Shown one piece after another: positions 23,730 through 32,718 of a stretch of DNA of 64,000 nt. Made by a program: the position numbers and the translations under genes. Position 1 is the stretch's first letter; each line of letters starts with the position of its first letter. The stretch comes from Fibrobacter sp. (GTDB taxonomy: Bacteria; Fibrobacterota; Fibrobacteria; Fibrobacterales; Fibrobacteraceae), in contig JAKSIG010000008.1 of NCBI GenBank assembly GCA_024398955.1, positions 1 to 64,000 of the forward strand, given 5' to 3'. The notes under the pieces were generated by a model. The model was not told the DNA's origin. It saw only the letters and a list, made by a program, of their open reading frames with translations, and did no database searches.

Positions 23730-23742
23730 GTAAGGTTTAAGA

Positions 23743-23793
23743 AAAAACGCAAGGTATTTAACCCCTTATTTTTGCTAAAAACGCAGAGTATTT
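23743..23793. repeat. Two direct repeats, 34-bp period (distal copies)
   Basis: Two 17-bp copies of AAAAACGCARRGTATTT (23743-23759 and 23777-23793) lie exactly 34 bp apart. They match the three copies at 26632-26716 in sequence, orientation and spacing. Together the two sets bracket the LlaJI-type endonuclease and DUF4143 ATPase genes. Confidence 0.85.
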
Positions 23794-23867
23794 TGAAATC
23801 AAAGGGAGACTACTCCAGTTATACAATCTTTTGTTGGCAACCTATGAATTAATGCAAACAGTTGTTC

Positions 23868-23902: not shown

Positions 23903-23967
23903 ATAAACAGGCCTGTAACGAAGTTGTCCCACCATAGGGGAACCAACGATGTTACGGGCCTTTTTTA
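23903..23967 (+). ncRNA. Candidate ~65-nt small RNA antisense to the 3' end of the endonuclease gene
   Basis: Predicted from a near-consensus promoter just upstream and a long hairpin ending in six Ts. The outer stem GGCCTGTAAC/GTTACGGGCC (23910-23960) contains an inner stem GTTG.CCC/GGGG..CAAC. The last bases overlap the stop codon and final codons of the endonuclease gene on the other strand. The same hairpin may also end that gene's transcript. Function unknown; antisense control or simply a shared terminator are both possible. Confidence 0.5.
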
Positions 23968-25217
23968 TTTGCGGTCGTAATCACATTCGCAAACTGCTTC
24001 TGCGCAGCATTGCTCTTGCTATAATTTTGCATCACAGTTTTTATATCAAGCAGGACGCCGTGAATTTTGTGGTAAGGTTTTACAAGACCTTTTGCCACAT
24101 CCGTATTTTTCCAATCACTATAGGCGTAGCCTAGATATTTCATTTTAAATGGGTACAAAAAATTCTCTGCAGTTACCGCACCCGCACAGTAAGGCATCAG
24201 GAAAACGTTATAAACCGTTTTGCCAGTTTTTTGTTCAGCAAATTCAGCATAGGCAAGCTGCTTGGTGATAGATTCTGACTGCGGCAACGTTCCACCATCA
24301 ATGCCGTAAGTATAATACTTGGAATCCAGAACAAAGATTTTGTCATCCACTTTCATGATGGTATCAGGACGCATTTCAACACGACCCGCATTTTTACCAT
24401 CAATAACCCAGCCGCAATTTGGATAATAATCTTCTCGATGTTCTGTTCCGAAAATGCGCTCAATCATCGCTTCCCAAACAGGAGCAAATGAATTTACCCC
24501 AAAATAAAATTCATCGGGAATTACATTTTCATCAGACACATTTTTCCCGAGATATTCCACAATCCGCTGCATATCCTGGAAAAGTGTAAGTGTGCGATCA
24601 TGGAATGTTTTAGAAGCCTTCGTCATCAAGACGGAAGAAAAAATCTCGTAATCAAAATCAAGCGTCGGTGGTTCCTGGATATCAATGCCAAAAACGAAGC
24701 CGATTCTCTTTGAAGCATCCCACACGCAATATTTATGAATAAGCGAAATCAGTTCCCGTTCATTATTATCCGTTTGCCGCGTAACAGGATCCAGATAGAC
24801 CACACTATCGTTAACGACATCCGGTTTCAAAGTCTTTATAGTTCGATTCCAGTCGACCTTGCCGCTTCCACCTTGCCTAAAGACAACTTCCTGCTCGGAG
24901 TAATAGCCATGCTCCATAAAATTCCGAAGCAGATTGACATAAGCCCGCATTGGAAAATCCGACGATGACTTTTCCACATCCTTTCCGATAATATTTGAAT
25001 TCTCACGAACCTCAAACAACTCCGAATCGGAAAGCACATCGAACAACTGCATAATATCCTGACGAAGCTCATCTTCATCAAGTTCCGCAATAGCGTCATC
25101 ATTCTTAAAGTATCCAGCAGGAAAACAAATTTCAAGACAACCGTCATTACGGATGCCGACAAATTCATCGCCACGCAATTTCGCTTCGCAAGTGCAGTAA
25201 TCGTTTAGCTTTTGCAT
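23952..25217 (-). CDS. LlaJI-family restriction endonuclease subunit
   Basis: A 421-residue protein matching the LlaJI restriction endonuclease family (R2 type), with 'GSGKVDWNRTIKTLKPDVV' in the middle and a PD-(D/E)XK nuclease core seen as 'MRPDTIMKVDDKIFVLDSKYY'. It would cut DNA together with the McrB-like NTPase encoded at 26733-28538. The frame is open to 25259, but ATG 25217 lies 8 nt after the ATPase stop and avoids overlap. Between it and its partner sits a DUF4143 ATPase gene, an unusual interruption of this operon. Confidence 0.82.
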   Translation of the reverse strand: MQKLNDYCTCEAKLRGDEFVGIRNDGCLEICFPAGYFKNDDAIAELDEDELRQDIMQLFDVLSDSELFEVRENSNIIGKDVEKSSSDFPMRAYVNLLRNFMEHGYYSEQEVVFRQGGSGKVDWNRTIKTLKPDVVNDSVVYLDPVTRQTDNNERELISLIHKYCVWDASKRIGFVFGIDIQEPPTLDFDYEIFSSVLMTKASKTFHDRTLTLFQDMQRIVEYLGKNVSDENVIPDEFYFGVNSFAPVWEAMIERIFGTEHREDYYPNCGWVIDGKNAGRVEMRPDTIMKVDDKIFVLDSKYYTYGIDGGTLPQSESITKQLAYAEFAEQKTGKTVYNVFLMPYCAGAVTAENFLYPFKMKYLGYAYSDWKNTDVAKGLVKPYHKIHGVLLDIKTVMQNYSKSNAAQKQFANVITTANKKGP

Positions 25218-25225
25218 TTGTGATC

Positions 25226-26590
25226 TCACAAGCAGATTGCCATATAAGGCGGAATGCAAACAGTATCATCGTTCCGAATGGCAAAATTCTTCGGATGGAT
25301 TATATAAGAAGTCTTAATACGCTTTTTGAATTTCTTCTTAAACGATTCAAGCGATGTGGTTGTGTAATTTTTTGAAGACTTGACTTCGATTGGAATGATT
25401 CTTGAACCTACCGAATCAGATTCGCTAATCATAAAATCAATTTCAATATCGTTGCGATGTTTTTCCTGATTGAAATGGGTATAAAAATAAAGCTTATGTC
25501 CTTGAGATACAAGCATCTGCGCAATGACATTTTCAAAGAGCATACCCTTATTGATCGCAAGCTTTTCGTTCATGATTTCCTTGTACAAGGATTCCTTTGA
25601 AATCTGATTTTCGCCAAAAGCCATAGAGAACAAAAGGCCTGTATCGCCCATATAGCACTTGACTGCGGAATCGTCCGCGTTCAAGCCAAAGCCAATATTT
25701 GGATCGGAGCACTTGAAACAGTTGTTTGCAATCATGGAATTGGAAAGCCACAGGAAGGTATTCTCATAGCTATTTTCACTACCGAGCCCCCCAGCGATCT
25801 TTGAAAATACAACTCGCTTTTCGTGCTTAGACAAAAATGCAGGAATCTGTTCAAATGTCGAAAGGACTTTCCCCTTATACGAGCCCTTGATTTTTTGAAC
25901 ATCCTTTTTGTAGAGTTCAATAATCTTGCGCTTTGCCTTGTCGCTATAGTCAAAGCTGTAAGTATTTTCCAGGAACGCGGCAATGGATTGAGGCATGCCC
26001 CCTATCAAAATATACTGCTTGAATAGACGCATGCACTCCTTATGGAGTGGTTCATCCAACGCCTTCTTTCTTGAAAAAGCATCGCGGATAAAGTCACATA
26101 TATTCGGCTTATCCATCGCCCAGCAAAATTCCTCAAAATCCATAGGGAACATCTGGATTGATGTTTCTTCCGAGGGGATGGTAATATCCTTGACATTTTC
26201 GTAAATGGAAATAAGTGAGCCGGTTTCTATATAATCAAACCTGCCGTCTTTCACCAATTTTTTGATGGATTGCCTTGCCTTCGGAAATTTTTGTACCTCA
26301 TCAAAAATAATCAGGGATTCCCTGGGATGAAGATTCACTCCGTACACATAGGAAAGCGTATTGAAGAAGGCAGAGAGATCGCTCATTCTGTTAAAGGCAT
26401 CAAGTACAGCCTTTTCGCAGTCATTAAAATCAATCAGAATATAGGAACGGTATTCGTTCTTCGCGAATTCTTCTACGATGGTACTTTTTCCAATACGACG
26501 CGCGCCCTCTATAAGAAGGGCTTCTCGACCTTTGGATTCTTCCTTCCAGTTCAGAAGTTCTTGATAAATCTTGCGTCTAAAAGTAATCAT
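25226..26590 (-). CDS. AAA ATPase with DUF4143 domain (ATPase 1)
   Basis: 454 residues. N-terminal AAA_14-type ATPase with Walker A GARRIGKST (29-37) and Walker B 'SLIIFDEVQKFPKA'. The C-terminal DUF4143 region ends in a PD-(D/E)XK-like core 'IEIDFMISES...IPIEVKSS'. Family members are common, multicopy and of unknown function. The gene lies between the two restriction subunits and is only 8 nt from the endonuclease, suggesting coupling. Three 17-bp repeats with a 34-bp period lie just upstream, and the nearest covers the predicted -35. Confidence 0.87.
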   Translation of the reverse strand: MITFRRKIYQELLNWKEESKGREALLIEGARRIGKSTIVEEFAKNEYRSYILIDFNDCEKAVLDAFNRMSDLSAFFNTLSYVYGVNLHPRESLIIFDEVQKFPKARQSIKKLVKDGRFDYIETGSLISIYENVKDITIPSEETSIQMFPMDFEEFCWAMDKPNICDFIRDAFSRKKALDEPLHKECMRLFKQYILIGGMPQSIAAFLENTYSFDYSDKAKRKIIELYKKDVQKIKGSYKGKVLSTFEQIPAFLSKHEKRVVFSKIAGGLGSENSYENTFLWLSNSMIANNCFKCSDPNIGFGLNADDSAVKCYMGDTGLLFSMAFGENQISKESLYKEIMNEKLAINKGMLFENVIAQMLVSQGHKLYFYTHFNQEKHRNDIEIDFMISESDSVGSRIIPIEVKSSKNYTTTSLESFKKKFKKRIKTSYIIHPKNFAIRNDDTVCIPPYMAICL

Positions 26591-26612: not shown

Positions 26613-26641
26613 AATATACTTAATAAACATAAAAAACGCAA
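26613..26641 (-). promoter_or_regulatory. Predicted promoter of ATPase 1
   Basis: On the minus strand: TTGCGT (26641-26636), a 17-bp spacer, and TATATT (26618-26613). The -35 lies inside the repeat at 26632-26648, so a protein bound to the repeat would block or recruit polymerase. GGGA 8 nt before the ATG is a plausible ribosome-binding site. Confidence 0.55.
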
Positions 26642-26716
26642 GGTATTCTACTGCTTATTCATGTTAAAAACGCAAAGTATTTTATATCAAAATAACGGCA
26701 AAAACGCAGAGTATTT
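26632..26716. repeat. Three direct repeats, exact 34-bp period, upstream of ATPase 1
   Basis: Copies of AAAAACGCARRGTATTY at 26632-26648, 26666-26682 and 26700-26716 start exactly 34 bp apart, with non-conserved spacers. They fill the gap between the McrB-like gene and ATPase 1 and match two more copies beyond the endonuclease gene. The layout suggests an operator or iteron array on one face of the helix. Confidence 0.88.
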
Positions 26717-26732
26717 TTAATTTTTGTAGCTA

Positions 26733-28538
26733 TCACGCCCCAAAACTCTTAAACACCCCAAATTTGAGTTCATGGAATTTTGAAATCAGGGTTTCTAGCG
26801 TATCACAACCTTCGGCAAAAATCTGCGTGCGCTTGAACTTGAATGCATCATCCCATAAATATTTCAGAACCTTTTCGGCAAAGACCTTTTCTGAAATTTC
26901 GCCATTCACATTGCATACAAACCAGACTCCAAGGCGCTTGTCTTCGGTACTGGATAGGCCCTTGAGCACCTGCGTAATCTTGCTGTTGGCCCATTCCCAG
27001 AATTCGCCCCAGGTGGTTTCTGTCCCAACAATTTTTGCATTGTGCTGATTGCGGATAGCTTCGGTTTTAAAACCGTCAACTTCACCTTTTGCAAATTCAT
27101 TACGGACCAGCTCCATGCCGAAGCGACGCTGGAAAGCGTTATCCAAAGTGAACACGTTTTGGTCGCTTGTGTTCATGGTTGCAAAAATGGACAGGTTGGG
27201 CGGCAAGCGGATTGCTGTATTTTCGGTGAAACGAAGTTTTCCATTTTCACCAAAACCCAGCCAGTTAATGTCTATCGATTTATAGGCAGAAACTTCGCCC
27301 CTTCCGTCTTCTTCAGAAAATTCTACCGGAGTGTCACAACCGTCGTGAGATTCATTTGCAAAGCTCTTGATATCGCGAATGTAGTCGTTCAAATCTTCAT
27401 GGTCAACGCCGTAAACACTCCAGCCGGGGCCGTAGCCAAACTCGTCCTTTTCATCATTCGGCTTTATACGGTCGCACAGCTGGAAAACTTCGCCAAGAAT
27501 TGCCGAAGCCTTTCCGCGATTGATTTCATCAATGACCAAGTAAAATTCCTGATTCGGGTTCAGGTAAGCACGGCGCAAAATTTTTGCAAAAGGGCCTGCC
27601 ACAAATTCATAAGTTACGGAATGGTTTCTCACCTTTGGGCGAATCTGGCCAATAAATTCTGAATTTGTATAATCCGGATGGAAGACAACGCAGACCTTGT
27701 TGAAGTCAGGGACACTCTTCAACTTTTCCTTGATGGTGTTTGATTTTCCACAGCCAGGAACGCCATAGTAAATGATCTGGGAGGGGGGGAATACTGGGTA
27801 AGCAGGCTGTTTGCTTGACGACGAATCTATCGCATTTGATTCTTTAAGAAAATTTGAATAGTGATTTAAAGCTGTGAGAGGACGACCGTTTTGATCTTTT
27901 TCATTTACATCATTCCATGTCGAGAGATTTAAAATACGATTCTTTTCGACTTCGTAACTAGTACTTTTCGCGAATCGAAAAAGATTTCCGATATTGGCAT
28001 TTGGAATTTTTTCGTCTAACCATTTTTCAATTATATCGACAACATGCTTTTGAAATTCAACTTTTCCCTTGCAATTTTGAGAAAGCCATATTATAAAATC
28101 GGTCTTTCTGTCCTCAATAGACTCTTCAGTAAAATTTTCAGTTAATGTCTTATCTTTTAAAAACTCATCAAAAAAAACATGCAAAGAAATGTGTTCATGA
28201 ATTTTTTTAGGGATACTCGGACTATTGCCTTGATACACATTCCACAATTCACTTTCTTGTTTTTCGTGCACAAGAACAAATTGTTCCCGCCGAAGTAAAG
28301 ACACACCTGAAAAAATATCATCTGTTAAATTCTGTCCATTCAAGGAATCTAACAAAAGTATGAATTGATTCCTGAGAATGCCACTATTTAGTCTGTTCCT
28401 TCCATTACCACTACCGGCAACAGTGTATTCAGACCTAACAAATGCCTTTGCAGTATTTAAACTAGTTTCATCATTTTTTGTGTCTTGGTTAAATCCATAT
28501 TTCGCAAACAACTGATTCGCATCATTTTTTCCAAACAT
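26733..28538 (-). CDS. McrB-like AAA+ restriction subunit (LlaJI R1 type)
   Basis: 601 residues. A poorly conserved N-terminal ~255 residues, perhaps a DNA-recognition part, precedes a McrB-type AAA+ domain. It has Walker A 'YGVPGCGKSNTI', Walker B 'YLVIDEINRGKASAILGEVF', the GTP-specificity-like NTSD in 'FATMNTSDQNVFTLDNAFQR' and an arginine pair in QRRF. A GTG at 28550 is possible, but ATG 28538 overlaps the methyltransferase stop as TGATG, the expected coupling. It would power DNA translocation for the LlaJI-type nuclease. The region is AT-rich. Confidence 0.85.
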   Translation of the reverse strand: MFGKNDANQLFAKYGFNQDTKNDETSLNTAKAFVRSEYTVAGSGNGRNRLNSGILRNQFILLLDSLNGQNLTDDIFSGVSLLRREQFVLVHEKQESELWNVYQGNSPSIPKKIHEHISLHVFFDEFLKDKTLTENFTEESIEDRKTDFIIWLSQNCKGKVEFQKHVVDIIEKWLDEKIPNANIGNLFRFAKSTSYEVEKNRILNLSTWNDVNEKDQNGRPLTALNHYSNFLKESNAIDSSSSKQPAYPVFPPSQIIYYGVPGCGKSNTIKEKLKSVPDFNKVCVVFHPDYTNSEFIGQIRPKVRNHSVTYEFVAGPFAKILRRAYLNPNQEFYLVIDEINRGKASAILGEVFQLCDRIKPNDEKDEFGYGPGWSVYGVDHEDLNDYIRDIKSFANESHDGCDTPVEFSEEDGRGEVSAYKSIDINWLGFGENGKLRFTENTAIRLPPNLSIFATMNTSDQNVFTLDNAFQRRFGMELVRNEFAKGEVDGFKTEAIRNQHNAKIVGTETTWGEFWEWANSKITQVLKGLSSTEDKRLGVWFVCNVNGEISEKVFAEKVLKYLWDDAFKFKRTQIFAEGCDTLETLISKFHELKFGVFKSFGA

Positions 28539-29545
28539 CACGCACCCCACTTTTTCAAATTTGTCTTACCCTGGGGTTCTGGAGAACTTGCACCAAGCGG
28601 AAAGCCCATAAGATATTCAGCATTCTTTGGCGACGGTTTATCAAAAACCTTTTTGAAATTTCTACAGCCCTGATGTTTCATCATAGATGGTGCTGAATAA
28701 TTCGCCATAGTGGTAGGAGTATGAACCAAGCCCATATCCTCACCAAAAGTTTCTTTAATCCATGTTTTTTGAATTTCAAAAACCTTTGCAATTTCCTCAT
28801 CAGATACAACTTCCGTATAATCCCCACCTTCAACATGGCGATTCACTAAGATTCTAAATGCAGATGCAGCAACAAAGGGTGACTGCGCATTACCAACACC
28901 TTTCAATTGTTCACGACGATCAGTCGCAGCTACATCATTTCCCAATAGATCAGGATTTTTACTCCAATACTTTCCTTTAAAAACGGGCAAAGAAAGAATA
29001 TGTTCCTTTACTTTTCCAAAAACTTTTTCGTTCTTTACAGCCAATAACCAAAAGCGATTTCTTTGATGATCGGCACCTAAATCTGAGCAGCTTAATCTAC
29101 AGAACTTAACCTTATATCCAATTGATTCTAGGTCAGACTTAGCTTTGCTTATCGCACGTAAAACAACATTTTCGCCAAAAACTACAGGAGCATCGGATTC
29201 TTTCACGAATCTGAACATTTCATCCCAAAGATTTTTTTCGGCAATATTCTTACCATGCGCCGCCGTACTGAATGCCTGACACGGAAACCCTCCACAAAGG
29301 ACATCAAACTTTCCTTTAAAGTCTTTGCCATCTAAAGCACGAAGATCACCATAAATTTCAAATTCATTCATCCAGCCATCTTTCTGACGCTGTTTTAAAA
29401 CCTTCTGGCAAAACTCACTGATTTCAACACCAGCACAGCACTGATGTCCAAGAAGTTCACCTCCATAAATTCCACCGCCGATTCCAGCGAATAAATGAAA
29501 CTCTTTTACTTGCGATTCATTCGCAACATCCTTTGTAGACGCCAT
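28538..29545 (-). CDS. DNA (cytosine-5) methyltransferase
   Basis: A 335-residue C5 methyltransferase with motif I 'LFAGIGGGIYG', motif IV with catalytic Cys 'GGFPCQAFS', motif VI ENV, motif VIII 'DHQRNRFW', and the C-terminal 'GNAQSPFVAASAFRILVN'. It protects host DNA from the restriction subunits encoded just downstream. The target-recognition region is short. LlaJI itself has two C5 methyltransferases, while only one is present here, so the recognition site may be palindromic or the second enzyme may lie elsewhere. Confidence 0.92.
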   Translation of the reverse strand: MASTKDVANESQVKEFHLFAGIGGGIYGGELLGHQCCAGVEISEFCQKVLKQRQKDGWMNEFEIYGDLRALDGKDFKGKFDVLCGGFPCQAFSTAAHGKNIAEKNLWDEMFRFVKESDAPVVFGENVVLRAISKAKSDLESIGYKVKFCRLSCSDLGADHQRNRFWLLAVKNEKVFGKVKEHILSLPVFKGKYWSKNPDLLGNDVAATDRREQLKGVGNAQSPFVAASAFRILVNRHVEGGDYTEVVSDEEIAKVFEIQKTWIKETFGEDMGLVHTPTTMANYSAPSMMKHQGCRNFKKVFDKPSPKNAEYLMGFPLGASSPEPQGKTNLKKWGA

Positions 29546-29561
29546 CTACTCGCTCCAATCA

Positions 29562-29592
29562 AAAAGGGTTGAACCTGAGTTCAGCCCTTTGT
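29562..29592 (-). terminator. Hairpin upstream of the methyltransferase gene
   Basis: AAAGGGTTGAAC / GTTCAGCCCTTT (11 of 12 pairs plus a wobble). On the minus strand it is followed by TTGATTGG, ~17 bp before the methyltransferase ATG. It may end transcripts coming from the structured region on the right, or act as a leader hairpin. Confidence 0.5.
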
Positions 29593-29921
29593 TCGGAGCA
29601 ATTCACTAAGACACTGTATATTTCAAAAACAAATCGGCCATACACCAAAAACGCCTTGGCGCGCATGCACAAAAGCGAAGGTCGAGACCGCTGGGTACAC
29701 GACCCCCAGGGTACAATGCGCCCATGGCATTCATGGGCATCCGAGATTTGTCCTGTTCCTTGTGCGTAAAGAGTGTCGAAGTTCCTAGCCGAGAACGAGA
29801 GCAAAACTCACATTGCGAGAGTCATAGAAAAACTTGTCTACATGGTTTATTCATGTCCGAGCATCAAGAGTTTCTACAAAACTCACCGAGCGCCCTCATC
29901 CAGCTCGGACCAACGAAAAAA
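29593..29921. other. Non-coding, hairpin-rich region with a truncated repeat copy
   Basis: No gene is seen. Hairpins include GCCCATG-gcatt-CATGGGC (29720-29738), GAGTTT...AAACTC (near 29868-29884) and a longer pair GTCCGAGC/GCTCGGAC (~29856 to ~29910). 29772-29827 matches the right end of the structured element found complete at 29922-30181 and 31664-31945 (TGTCGAAGTT.CTAG and CAAAACTCACATT), so it is a truncated third copy. Confidence 0.55.
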
Positions 29922-30181
29922 GGCGCCAGACCGAACGCATTTATCAGCTAGAGGCCTTCGACAACCTGACACAAATAAATACGACGATCCGCGCCCAATT
30001 GCACAATCTAGCGTACATTCATCCAGAATGCACACAACGCAAAACATGGCCGTCCGGTAAACCGGGCGGCAAGCACGTCGTTTCGTCTTACTCACCGTGT
30101 CTTGAAATGTCGAAGTTTCTAGCTGTGAATAAGAGAACTCTTATGGAGATGAATATAGAATAAAATCACTTTTACAGTCAA
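29922..30181. repeat. Structured repeat element, copy 1
   Basis: This ~260-bp element recurs at 31664-31945. Its ends pair with each other: AGCTAGA/TCTAGCT, CTTCGACA/TGTCGAAG and GACAC/GTGTC (29946-30124). The interior differs between copies but keeps its pairing: ACGACG/CGTCGT here, a hairpin GCCGTCCGG-taaa-CCGGGCGGC (30049-30070), and GTACATTC/GAATGCAC. A U-G wobble in the hairpin favours plus-strand RNA. It may be a structured RNA gene or a palindromic mobile element. No open reading frame of note. Confidence 0.7.
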
Positions 30182-30234
30182 CCAAGGCCATATTTATTTG
30201 ACCCGTTTTGACCGTACGGGGGAACACCCAAGTT

Positions 30235-31545
30235 TCAAAGTCCTTCCGAGGCTATCCACTTCAAATAGAATTCCACCAGGTAGAGCGGCACATTGACCAT
30301 CTGCTCCTGCTCGCGGTAATCCGACATGGAAAATCGGATGCCCTTTAGCTGCGCGTTTGTTTTCAGCACCGTCGAAAGGGATTTCGCCTTGAGGTTTTCT
30401 TCGGCCTTGACTTCGGTGGGGTAAACGGCTCCACGCTGAAAGACAAAATCAATTTCCGAAGTTGAATTTTCGTTCGTGTAATAATACAGGGGCTGCCTCA
30501 TGGTCGCAATGTATTGCTGGGCGACATATTGCTCGGTAAAAGCCCCCTTGTATTCCGTTATCATCTTGGACTCGGCCAAAATTTCCTTGGCGGGAATGTC
30601 CGACATGGCACCGAGAAGCCCGAGATCGTTTACAAAGAGCTTGAAGCACCCCATGTCTTCGTAAAACTTGACGGGCATTTCGACCTTATTGATTCGACAA
30701 ACCTTATGGACGAGCCCTGCGTTGATGAGCCATTGGACTGCGTTTTCGTACTCCTTCGCCCTACCGCCCTTGCGGAGCGCTCCCCATATAAATTTCTTGT
30801 TCTCTTTAGCCAATTGGCTTGGGATCGAGTTCCATACGGCGGAAACTTTCGCAAGTTCGTTGGAGGGAATGTGCTTGGAGAAATCATCCCGATAATCGTC
30901 GAGAATCCGTTTCTGGATTTCACGGACTTCAAGGATGTTCTTGCGATCCACATAAGCGAGTACCGCCTCGGGCATTCCACCCACATAATAATACTGTCTT
31001 AAAAGTTCTATCAGTTTGGCCTTCAGGACGGCATATTCGTCGAACCTGAACGCGTTTAGGTGCATAAGCAGATTTTTTTCGCCAAGGGCATCTAGAAATT
31101 CGCTAAATGATAGCGGGCTCAATTTAAGCCTATCCACTTTTCCTACAGGGAACCCTGAGCCAGAATGGACCTGAAGCCCGAGCAGGGAACCCGCGACAAC
31201 AACGTGGTATCCGGGCGCATTCTCGCAAAAATACTTTAACGCAGTCAGACCCTGGGGCTGCTGCTGGATTTCGTCAAAAATGATAAGCGTTTTGCCAGGT
31301 TCCACGACCTGTGAAGTAATGGCGGAAACAGCTCGCAAAATCCTGTCGATGTTGAAGTCCGCGAACAGGAACTTGGAGGAATCGTCCGTATCGCAGTTTA
31401 TATAGGCGACATTCTCGAATTCGTTCTTTCCGAATTCCTTGAGCAGCCATGTTTTGCCGACCTGCCTTGCCCCCTCCAAAATGAGGGGTTTACGGTGCGC
31501 GCCGTTTTTCCATTTCAGTAGATCTTCATAAAGAAAACGCTTCAT
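30235..31545 (-). CDS. AAA ATPase with DUF4143 domain (ATPase 2)
   Basis: 436 residues, same architecture as ATPase 1 but strongly diverged. Walker A GARQVGKT (25-32), Walker B 'TLIIFDEIQQQPQGL', sensor-like 'VVVAGSLLGLQ', and a C-terminal PD-(D/E)XK-like 'TSEIDFVFQRGAVYPTEVKA'. The gene stands alone between two direct copies of a structured ~260-bp element. Three 15-bp repeats with a 32-bp period lie directly upstream, and TATATA lies a few nt before the ATG, so the mRNA is probably leaderless. Family function is unknown. Confidence 0.87.
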   Translation of the reverse strand: MKRFLYEDLLKWKNGAHRKPLILEGARQVGKTWLLKEFGKNEFENVAYINCDTDDSSKFLFADFNIDRILRAVSAITSQVVEPGKTLIIFDEIQQQPQGLTALKYFCENAPGYHVVVAGSLLGLQVHSGSGFPVGKVDRLKLSPLSFSEFLDALGEKNLLMHLNAFRFDEYAVLKAKLIELLRQYYYVGGMPEAVLAYVDRKNILEVREIQKRILDDYRDDFSKHIPSNELAKVSAVWNSIPSQLAKENKKFIWGALRKGGRAKEYENAVQWLINAGLVHKVCRINKVEMPVKFYEDMGCFKLFVNDLGLLGAMSDIPAKEILAESKMITEYKGAFTEQYVAQQYIATMRQPLYYYTNENSTSEIDFVFQRGAVYPTEVKAEENLKAKSLSTVLKTNAQLKGIRFSMSDYREQEQMVNVPLYLVEFYLKWIASEGL

Positions 31546-31556
31546 ACTCTATATAT

Positions 31557-31635
31557 ACATTTTTCTTGACGAATTTTTAGCGCTATTTACATTTTTCTAG
31601 GCGTAATTTAAACACTGCGCACATTTTTCTAGGCG
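31557..31635. repeat. Three direct repeats, exact 32-bp period, upstream of ATPase 2
   Basis: ACATTTTTCTTGACG (31557-31571) and two copies of ACATTTTTCTAGGCG (31589-31603, 31621-31635) start exactly 32 bp apart. The nearest abuts the predicted -10 of ATPase 2. The sequence is unrelated to the ATPase 1 repeats, but number, spacing and position are the same. Confidence 0.87.
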
Positions 31636-31663
31636 AAACAACAATTTCCCACAAAAAAGCCAT

Positions 31664-31945
31664 AGAAAAAAGGCGCGGAATCGCAGGCATTTGTCAGCTA
31701 GAGGCCTTCGACAGCCCGACACAAACAAACACGAACGACCCGCGCCCCATATTCTGGTCACCCAGCAAATGCACATTCAAAAAATTGAAGACGCATTACG
31801 CCAAGCGATGGCGCCAAGGTTAACCTGGCGGCAGACGCGTTCGTTTCGTCTTACTCACCGTGTCTTGAAATGTCGAAGTTTCTAGCTGTGAATAAGAGAA
31901 ATGCTAATGACTTGAATATAGAACAAAATTCACATTCAAGTCAAT
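31664..31945. repeat. Structured repeat element, copy 2
   Basis: Direct copy of the element at 29922-30181, with near-identical ends and a different interior. Pairing is kept with changed bases: ACGAACG/CGTTCGT (31731-31737 with 31838-31844), hairpin GCGCCAAGG-ttaa-CCTGGCGGC (31811-31832, one bulge) and AATGC..TTCAA/TTGAA..GCATT. The outer stem spans 31696-31887. Compensatory changes between the two copies argue for a selected fold. It brackets ATPase 2 together with copy 1. Confidence 0.7.
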
Positions 31946-31983: not shown

Positions 31984-32718
31984 CTACACTCTCTCGCCTT
32001 TCAGCAAATCGCTTTTTTCCATGAAGTCCAGCAGCTGGTGCTTGGTAGGCAATTTCGGTTTATAGACAGAGGCAAAATCGCTCTTGGCGACACAGGTGGC
32101 AAACTCCACCATTTTGGGTCCGCGGCTCGTAGTGAGCAGGATTCCTACCGGAGGATTATCGCCAGCCTGCATGACCTTATCCCGGTAATGCCTAATGCAG
32201 ATTCCCAACTGATCCAGATCGGCCTTCCGGAATTCGCCATCCTTAAGGTTCACCAGCACATGGCAATGAAGCATGCGGTTGTAAAAGACCCAATCCACGC
32301 ATAGGTCGGGGCCATTCACGGGCAGCTGCTTTGCCCGAGCCTCAAGGCAAAAGCCCAGCCCTAGCGAAAGAAAGAAATTCGCCATACGATCCTGGGACTC
32401 GTAAGGTTCCACATTGTAGGACGACCGCTTTTCGGCAGCGAAGCTGCCCATGAGAAATTCAGCGGCCGACAGCTCCTGCGCCAGGGAGCGTTCCACAGAC
32501 GCCACCTGCAATTCCACCAGCCTTTGCTGTAACCCCTTGCGTTCGGCAATCTGCGCAGAAAGCCCAGGCAGCTCACCCTCCTTGACATAGCGGGATCTGA
32601 CCTTGTCGCCCTCGCGCCACTGCAGGTAATAACGATCCTTACCCTGAATGACCTTCTTGGTGATAGAACCCTTGGGCAAAAGGGCAATTCGATTTTCTAT
32701 ACTTTCAATTTCATTCAT
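31984..32718 (-). CDS. YhcG/DUF1016-like PD-(D/E)XK protein with altered active site
   Basis: 244 residues. The N-terminal ~60 resemble the DUF6788-type domain ('RYYLQWREGDKVRSRYVKEG'), followed by a coiled stretch and a DUF1016 C-terminal-like nuclease fold: 'DLCVDWVFYNRMLHCHVLVN' then 'DGEFRKADLDQLGICIRHYR'. In active relatives the second motif reads ELK; here it is NLK, so the catalytic Glu is missing and it may bind rather than cut DNA. The promoter overlaps TGTAGTTTAT repeats. A restriction-linked or regulatory role is inference. Confidence 0.7.
   Translation of the reverse strand: MNEIESIENRIALLPKGSITKKVIQGKDRYYLQWREGDKVRSRYVKEGELPGLSAQIAERKGLQQRLVELQVASVERSLAQELSAAEFLMGSFAAEKRSSYNVEPYESQDRMANFFLSLGLGFCLEARAKQLPVNGPDLCVDWVFYNRMLHCHVLVNLKDGEFRKADLDQLGICIRHYRDKVMQAGDNPPVGILLTTSRGPKMVEFATCVAKSDFASVYKPKLPTKHQLLDFMEKSDLLKGERV

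Follow-up and report, generated by a model that had tools for sequence, protein, structure and literature searches.

How bacteria control several restriction-modification (R-M) systems in one cell, which can be lethal if mistimed, is a long-standing question, and the known R-M controls are C proteins, methylated promoters, methyltransferase repressors and antisense promoters. Outside the R-M field, the trp-type attenuators of amino-acid operons place a four-strand leader with an anti-antiterminator, an antiterminator and an intrinsic terminator, all mutually exclusive, upstream of an operon. The Fibrobacter leader described here shares this layout. It differs from trp-type attenuators in that it has no leader peptide, that the sequence of its antiterminator (2:3, strand 2 with strand 3) varies by locus, that many copies occur per genome, that a second strand 2 can follow the terminator, and that R-M and surface genes would be controlled. 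A further likeness is to CopA/CopT and RNAI/RNAII, since complementary hairpin loops may start an extended duplex and the specificity is private to each copy. In contrast to CopA/CopT, however, both Fibrobacter strands belong to one locus with a single direction of transcription and do not serve plasmid copy control, and any action in trans is putative.

Type III toxin-antitoxin systems and AbiF also combine a structured RNA with a terminator before a defence gene (PMC12373285), but the Fibrobacter RNA has no repeats and its evidence concerns RNA-RNA and not RNA-protein contacts; since the proteins behind the leader are unrelated to each other, it is not taken for a type III antitoxin. RNA-level regulation of an R-M operon is represented by EcoRI and Eco29kI, for which antisense RNA control from reverse promoters inside the R-M genes is described (PMC3874152), whereas the Fibrobacter RNA is a same-strand 5' leader common to many unrelated R-M systems. 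The parts of two reviews of R-M regulation that were covered by a term search (PMC3874152, PMC12707154) deal with promoters, C proteins, methyltransferase repressors, antisense RNAs and hairpins near start sites, and no leader attenuation came up in this search.

No earlier description of the leader family was found in the open-licence literature, and the leader RNAs are a real, previously undescribed family without an Rfam entry. With its four strands, three competing helices, locus-private pairing and, in part of the family, second strand 2, the family is, as far as sequences can tell, a new form of transcription attenuation tied to R-M systems. Our best reading is that of a putative new attenuator family controlling R-M and accessory genes, in which the element probably works in cis as a 5' leader RNA and regulates the genes behind it through transcription attenuation, as judged from covariation and model folding.

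Units in the window and their relatives

The original prediction described a structured element in two direct copies, and both were found again, as copy A at 29922-30181 and copy B at 31664-31945 of the window, by which we mean the whole 64-kb stretch of Fibrobacter DNA analysed here. The compensatory changes reported between them are present as well: the inner helix ACGACG/CGTCGT of one copy becomes ACGAACG/CGTTCGT in the other, and the hairpin GCCGTCCGG becomes GCGCCAAGG. The outer helices occur in both copies, but they had been called constant, and elsewhere in the family they are the most variable part and covary. The element itself is real, but the reported block includes the promoter; the outer pairing is real, too, but it is one of two competing states, the other being a hairpin of the intrinsic-terminator type, built with the same 3' strand. 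Both copies fold better than dinucleotide shuffles (z of -4.4 for A and -4.1 for B; 0/200 shuffles as good).

The element had been read on the plus strand, whereas promoter-like sites, T-runs and an excess of G-U pairs identify the minus strand as the functional one. On the minus strand, the helices comprise 96 G-U cells versus 4 A-C cells. The best promoter-like sites (TTGACT-18-TATATT) are located at 30181-30152 for A and 31944-31915 for B, a T-run lies at the minus-strand 3' end of both, and both lead into minus-strand genes; the orientation of leader to gene is constant across the units of the family. A plus-strand RNA or a single-stranded DNA element was rejected on account of the G-U excess and the orientation of promoter and U-run. 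The earlier suggestion of an RNA or single-stranded DNA fold is thereby narrowed to RNA by the one-strand G-U excess, the promoter, the terminator and the gene orientation. Units A (30181-29916) and B (31944-31666) are by sequence minus-strand RNAs, each with a promoter-like site, an RNA of about 225-240 nt and a 3' end resembling an intrinsic terminator.

All parts of units A to C and the genes behind them are on the minus strand. In unit A, the promoter-like site (30152-30181, from a promoter scan) is followed by a type I leader RNA of about 225 nt with a U-run end (29916-30140; covariance-model E-value 4e-16, and fold). Strand 1 (CTCTTATTC, 30127-30135), supported by pairing counts, is the 5' side of hairpin P0. 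Strand 2 (30085-30124) consists of X (AGCTAGAAACTTCGACA), Y (AAGACAC) and GAGTAAGAC and has strand 1 (in P0) or strand 3 as its partner, while strand 3 (29946-29996) consists of GGGCGCGGATCGTCGT, TTTATT and Y'X' (TTTGTGTCAGGTTGTCGAAGGCCTCTAGCT) and has strand 2 or strand 4 as its partner; both are supported by covariation and pairing counts. Between them lie a 5' side of the antiterminator (ACGACGTGCTTG, 30070-30081, by covariation) and the variable hairpin P1 (30049-30070). Strand 4 and the U-run (29916-29938) make up the 3' half of the terminator, the stem of which is imperfect in this unit. Unit B has the same order, with its promoter-like site (31915-31944, promoter scan), a type I leader RNA of about 235 nt without a type II copy behind it (31666-31903; E-value 1.5e-18, and fold), strand 1 (31898-31890), strand 2 with X, Y and GAGTAAGAC (31848-31887), strand 3 from GGGGCGCGGGTCGTTCGT to Y'X' (31696-31748) and strand 4 (GCGATTCCGCGCC) with the U-run (31666-31684).

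A third, partial unit C (about 29819-29640) lies between unit A and the gene of a C5-cytosine methyltransferase and repeats the 5' part only. It is a type II unit, that is, a second copy of strands 1 and 2, with strand 2' at 29750-29791 and hairpins at 29738-29720 and 29710-29691. Type II units (e.g. window 29691-29738) contain conserved near-repeats GGGCGTATTGTAYCC that are similar to the start of strand 3 and are possibly a degenerate strand 3 or a protein site. The original prediction had missed the strand, the terminator/antiterminator switch, this third unit and the role as an R-M leader.

Its statement that no known RNA family shows this pattern agrees with Rfam, which yielded only a tRNA over the window at the gathering score and nothing credible over the element at E-values up to 10. 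A first DNA search of 101 genomes detected relatives in 20, including the genome of the window, and behind many of these relatives came first a partial copy of this type and next an R-M gene. The search of Fibrobacter genomes with a covariance model, proposed with the original prediction, was performed with model R1, built on the 90-nt 3' domain, and placed the family in 79/80 genomes of the genus, including 40/40 of high quality. The 1 to ~18 matches per genome are approximate copy counts, because the palindromic terminator stem yields echoes on the reverse strand (25-46 bits); the source genome of the window has four units. Within the phylum, matches occurred in 4/41 genera, all belonging to one family (Fibrobacter and three sister genera). 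Those in Bacteroidales, Bacilli and Lachnospiraceae metagenome-assembled genomes (MAGs) are mostly located on short contigs and probably misbinned. Among the named carriers are Fibrobacter intestinalis ATCC 43854 and numerous F. succinogenes MAGs; the Fibrobacter concerned are bacteria of the gut and rumen. The viral, phage and plasmid collections searched contained no family members, and an origin from these sources was rejected.

Competing helices and the proposed switch

From a sample of units weighted to the best-scoring copies, 131 were extracted, and covariation was ranked over all column pairs of the 126 distinct ones without an assumed structure. Nearly all of the top 16 column pairs fell on the antiparallel diagonals X:X' and Y:Y', which connect the 5' arm with the 3' arm, and the top 60 also held the P0 pairs 20-66, 25-61 and 26-60, the terminator-stem pairs 121-163 and 124-160 and the antiterminator pair 82-107; given an effective number of sequences of ~13, this is a ranking and not a formal significance test. 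Three competing helices are recovered by covariation, namely a 5' hairpin (1:2), an antiterminator (2:3) and a terminator (3:4). P0 joins strand 1 (consensus CUCUURUUC) to the GAAUAAG end of strand 2, strand 2 (X-Y-GAAUAAG-CUCACG) pairs with strand 3 (GGGCGUGAG-UUUAUUU-Y'X') to form the antiterminator, and strand 3 alternatively pairs with strand 4 (CAACUCCACGCC-U6) to form the intrinsic terminator. As in attenuators of the intrinsic-terminator type, a hairpin with a U-run lies between promoter and gene, its stem and T-run being conserved among the aligned units, and the alternative 2:3 helix excludes it by sharing strand 3. The conserved bases lie mostly inside the switching helices. A minimal subtype lacks the P1/P2 region altogether, and the core therefore comprises P0, antiterminator and terminator.

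In an alignment of 21 full units (A1), 96.5% of the cells of state 2:3 were paired, 17 of its 27 pairs carried double-sided changes and 0/500 shuffles reached as high a value, compared to 26-41% paired cells in slid controls. The fold under selection with compensatory change that had been postulated is strongly supported by these numbers, with which the structure-free covariation agrees. For the state combining 1:2 and 3:4, 96.8% of the cells were paired with 10 double-changed pairs, and slid controls reached at most 52%. The two states are mutually exclusive, because both use strand 3, and their mean energies, calculated without kissing loops and kinetics, are close (-84.9 kcal/mol for 2:3 versus -89.8 kcal/mol for 1:2 plus 3:4). 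When the RNA was cut before strand 4, strand 3 paired upstream in 131/131 units in model folding, while in the full-length RNA it paired upstream in 56 and downstream in 75 units. Two exclusive states of similar predicted energy are what a transcription attenuator needs.

A leader peptide at strand 1 is ruled out, as 0/131 units combine a Shine-Dalgarno sequence with an open reading frame of at least seven codons; in this respect the leader departs from the trp type. An apparent short open reading frame in type II units (MGVLYP...) was rejected, too, since its ATG is missing in several loci.

We propose that, as long as P0 holds strand 2, strand 3 would be free to enter the terminator, with the operon off. 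Once a protein, a ligand, another RNA or pausing of RNA polymerase opens or delays P0, 2:3 would form and the polymerase would read through into the R-M or surface-protein operon. This scheme supposes that the terminator works in vivo and that the opening of P0 is the regulated step, for which the simplest trigger would be a protein or RNA that targets strand 1 or P0, and no leader peptide would take part in the switch. Its likely purpose would be to hold down accessory genes that may be toxic or costly until the cell state or an infection releases them.

Locus-private pairing and the second strand 2

Within a locus, the pairing of strand 2 with strand 3 has an energy of -36.3 kcal/mol, against -21.7 with foreign strands 3 and -21.0 kcal/mol with foreign ones of the same genome. 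Five or six units were sampled from each of three genomes, and there the matrix of strand 2 against strand 3 is essentially diagonal. By these calculated energies, strands 2 and 3 match within a locus and not between loci, and such private codes would prevent cross-talk among the several copies of a genome.

The 131 units fall into 95 doubles, with a second strand 2 (2') downstream, and 36 singles, with no intermediate scores. The type II copy has no strands 3 and 4, and there is one type I unit per promoter. The first gene starts at a median of 293 nt after the U-run in doubles and 59 nt in singles, which leaves little room for another promoter in the single class. Strand 2' pairs with its own strand 3 at -35.0 and with foreign ones at -24.9 kcal/mol. 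Where 2' differs from 2, pairing with strand 3 is kept in 63/87 positions for X1 and 106/137 for Y, against a foreign-copy baseline of ~43% and ~35%, respectively, and the 2':3 pairing is therefore under selection of its own. In the double class, 2' (unit C in the window) is situated beyond the terminator and, with strand 1' preferentially bound by an upstream complement, would be free to capture strand 3. This would be a second locus-private pairing, of the short terminated RNA with the read-through mRNA, in trans or in cis. The Shine-Dalgarno sequence may often be hidden as well (98/114 units, a count without shuffle control); in the window, a hairpin GCTCC...GGAGC at 29552-29599 would mask that of the methyltransferase gene.

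The same anatomy could also suit a constitutively terminated small RNA with some leaky read-through. Type I would then be mainly a stable terminated RNA acting in trans on the mRNA leader in a CopA/CopT-like way, with attenuation at a fixed ratio and no regulated switch; its terminator loop (Y'X') would kiss and then pair with the 2' of the same locus and thereby tune translation or decay. X2 and X2' lie in small apical loops (GAAA/TTTC, GGGC/GCC), as kissing hairpins would have, and the double class shares with CopA/CopT the locus-specific complementarity to a second RNA segment, the independently selected 2':3 pairing. Moreover, strand 1' of the type II copy prefers its upstream complement in 77/93 units and is thus tied up, leaving 2' free, and private codes would be sensible if the RNAs meet in trans. 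However, the type II partner is absent in 36/131 units, strand 2 of the same molecule competes for Y'X', and a plain small RNA has no need of an antiterminator that covaries and competes exactly with the terminator. We regard this account as possible but rather doubtful.

Genes behind the leader and their exchange

A link of the copies to defence genes, another check suggested with the original prediction, holds far beyond the 64-kb window. Units A and C lead into a LlaJI-like R-M operon composed, in this order, of a C5-cytosine DNA methyltransferase (28538-29545; relatives PF00145), an AAA_5 (McrB-like) subunit (26733-28550) and a DUF4143/AAA_14 ATPase (25226-26590), both from a domain search, and a LlaJI-type restriction endonuclease (23952-25259; PF09563, E 5e-34). 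Unit B leads into another DUF4143/AAA_14 ATPase (30235-31545), whose family matches the PADLOC defence candidate PDC-S01 through two members of set A6, taken to be L002 and L115. Upstream of unit B, the window encodes a short YhcG-type PDDEXK nuclease of 244 aa (31984-32718), which is conserved in the corresponding position of two further genomes. A 53-nt direct repeat (AAAAAACGCAAGGTATT...) at 23742-23794, 26631-26683 and 26665-26717 brackets the block with the second DUF4143 ATPase and the LlaJI-type endonuclease and may mark a module boundary.

Among the 89 first genes scanned in the double class, 56 encode C5 methyltransferases, 10 EcoRI-type methyltransferases and 6 Tsp45I restriction enzymes, besides D12, N6/N4, HsdM and MmeI types; R-M proteins account for ~80 of the 89 by our own count. 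The remainder is one hydrolase and, for the most part, one family without Pfam or NCBIfam assignment. This family of ~313 aa (MKNIAADTPVRQIFDVY...), present in L057, L021, L118 and related loci, stands behind R-M-type leaders. The single class is mixed and includes FISUMP and collagen-like surface proteins, EcoRI-type, HsdM, type ISP and IIG R-M genes, an OLD-like ATPase, zinc-ribbon proteins and the window's DUF4143 ATPase. One subfamily of single-type leaders precedes genes for exported FISUMP/collagen-like or lipoprotein-like products (L068, L073, L075, L076, L080, L081, L136 and L148), and such leaders suggest a shared control of surface proteins and defence. Upstream of an EndoU-type nuclease gene, possibly a toxin, L064 (660-1596) has a unit whose 5' half is atypical.

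The prevalence of SAM-dependent methyltransferases behind double leaders would fit a ligand-binding riboswitch, in which P0 or the conserved joining segments bind a metabolite such as SAM or SAH and set the terminator, as would the terminator/antiterminator logic and the conserved segments CUCUURUUC, CGCUCACGUCUG and GGGGCGUGAG. We consider this unlikely, however, as the downstream genes also comprise operon-first restriction enzymes, collagen-like/FISUMP surface proteins, zinc-ribbon proteins and AAA ATPases, the minimal subtype dispenses with the P1/P2 region, conservation is concentrated in helices with no invariant unpaired pocket identified among the aligned units, and no Rfam riboswitch matched. 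It is very unlikely that the terminated RNA is an antitoxin or protein-binding RNA, as in type III toxin-antitoxin systems or AbiF, that inhibits the downstream protein. A structured RNA, a terminator and then a defence gene are indeed the type III layout, and the 3' terminator of the AbiF RNA limits read-through into the toxin gene (PMC12373285), but the Fibrobacter pairing code is free to drift, its changes being compensated, no tandem repeats like those of type III are present, and a protein-specific fit is implausible because many proteins without any relation to each other stand behind this one RNA family.

Several sites combine an upstream flank and leader of 76-98% identity between genomes with unrelated R-M genes, and in the pairs L055/L057, L054/L055, L031/L033 and L048/L051 homology ends at or within tens of bases of the first start codon. 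The window and L115 (genome G106) have units B and A, the intervening ATPase and most of C in common at 95%, but different C5 methyltransferases follow the common leader, with the break near the start codon (window 29541-29637). In these alignments the leader behaves like a constant expression platform, with one R-M module replaced by another behind it. That the element is a DNA site for recombination or transposition, or a REP-like sequence, is highly improbable despite its direct copies in the window, the multi-copy genomes and its position at sites of module exchange, given the one-strand G-U excess, the promoter and U-run oriented towards the gene on the G-U-rich strand and its absence from phage, plasmid and viral collections.

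Under the preferred reading as an attenuator, a common RNA leader before dozens of unrelated R-M enzymes across a bacterial family would add a layer to the control of these systems. This is testable in cultured strains, as F. intestinalis ATCC 43854 carries copies, and the natural orthogonal pairs may serve as insulated RNA switches. The occurrence of the same leader before adhesin-like proteins hints at a joint control of anti-phage defence and surface proteins. Tentatively, the family might even be a genus-wide, peptide-free attenuator in which every locus has its private code of three strands (2, 2' and 3), so that its short terminated RNA and its read-through mRNA recognise only each other, and in which the leader is at the same time a docking platform for exchanged R-M modules. 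If this is true, every R-M operon in a Fibrobacter cell would have its own orthogonal feedback switch.
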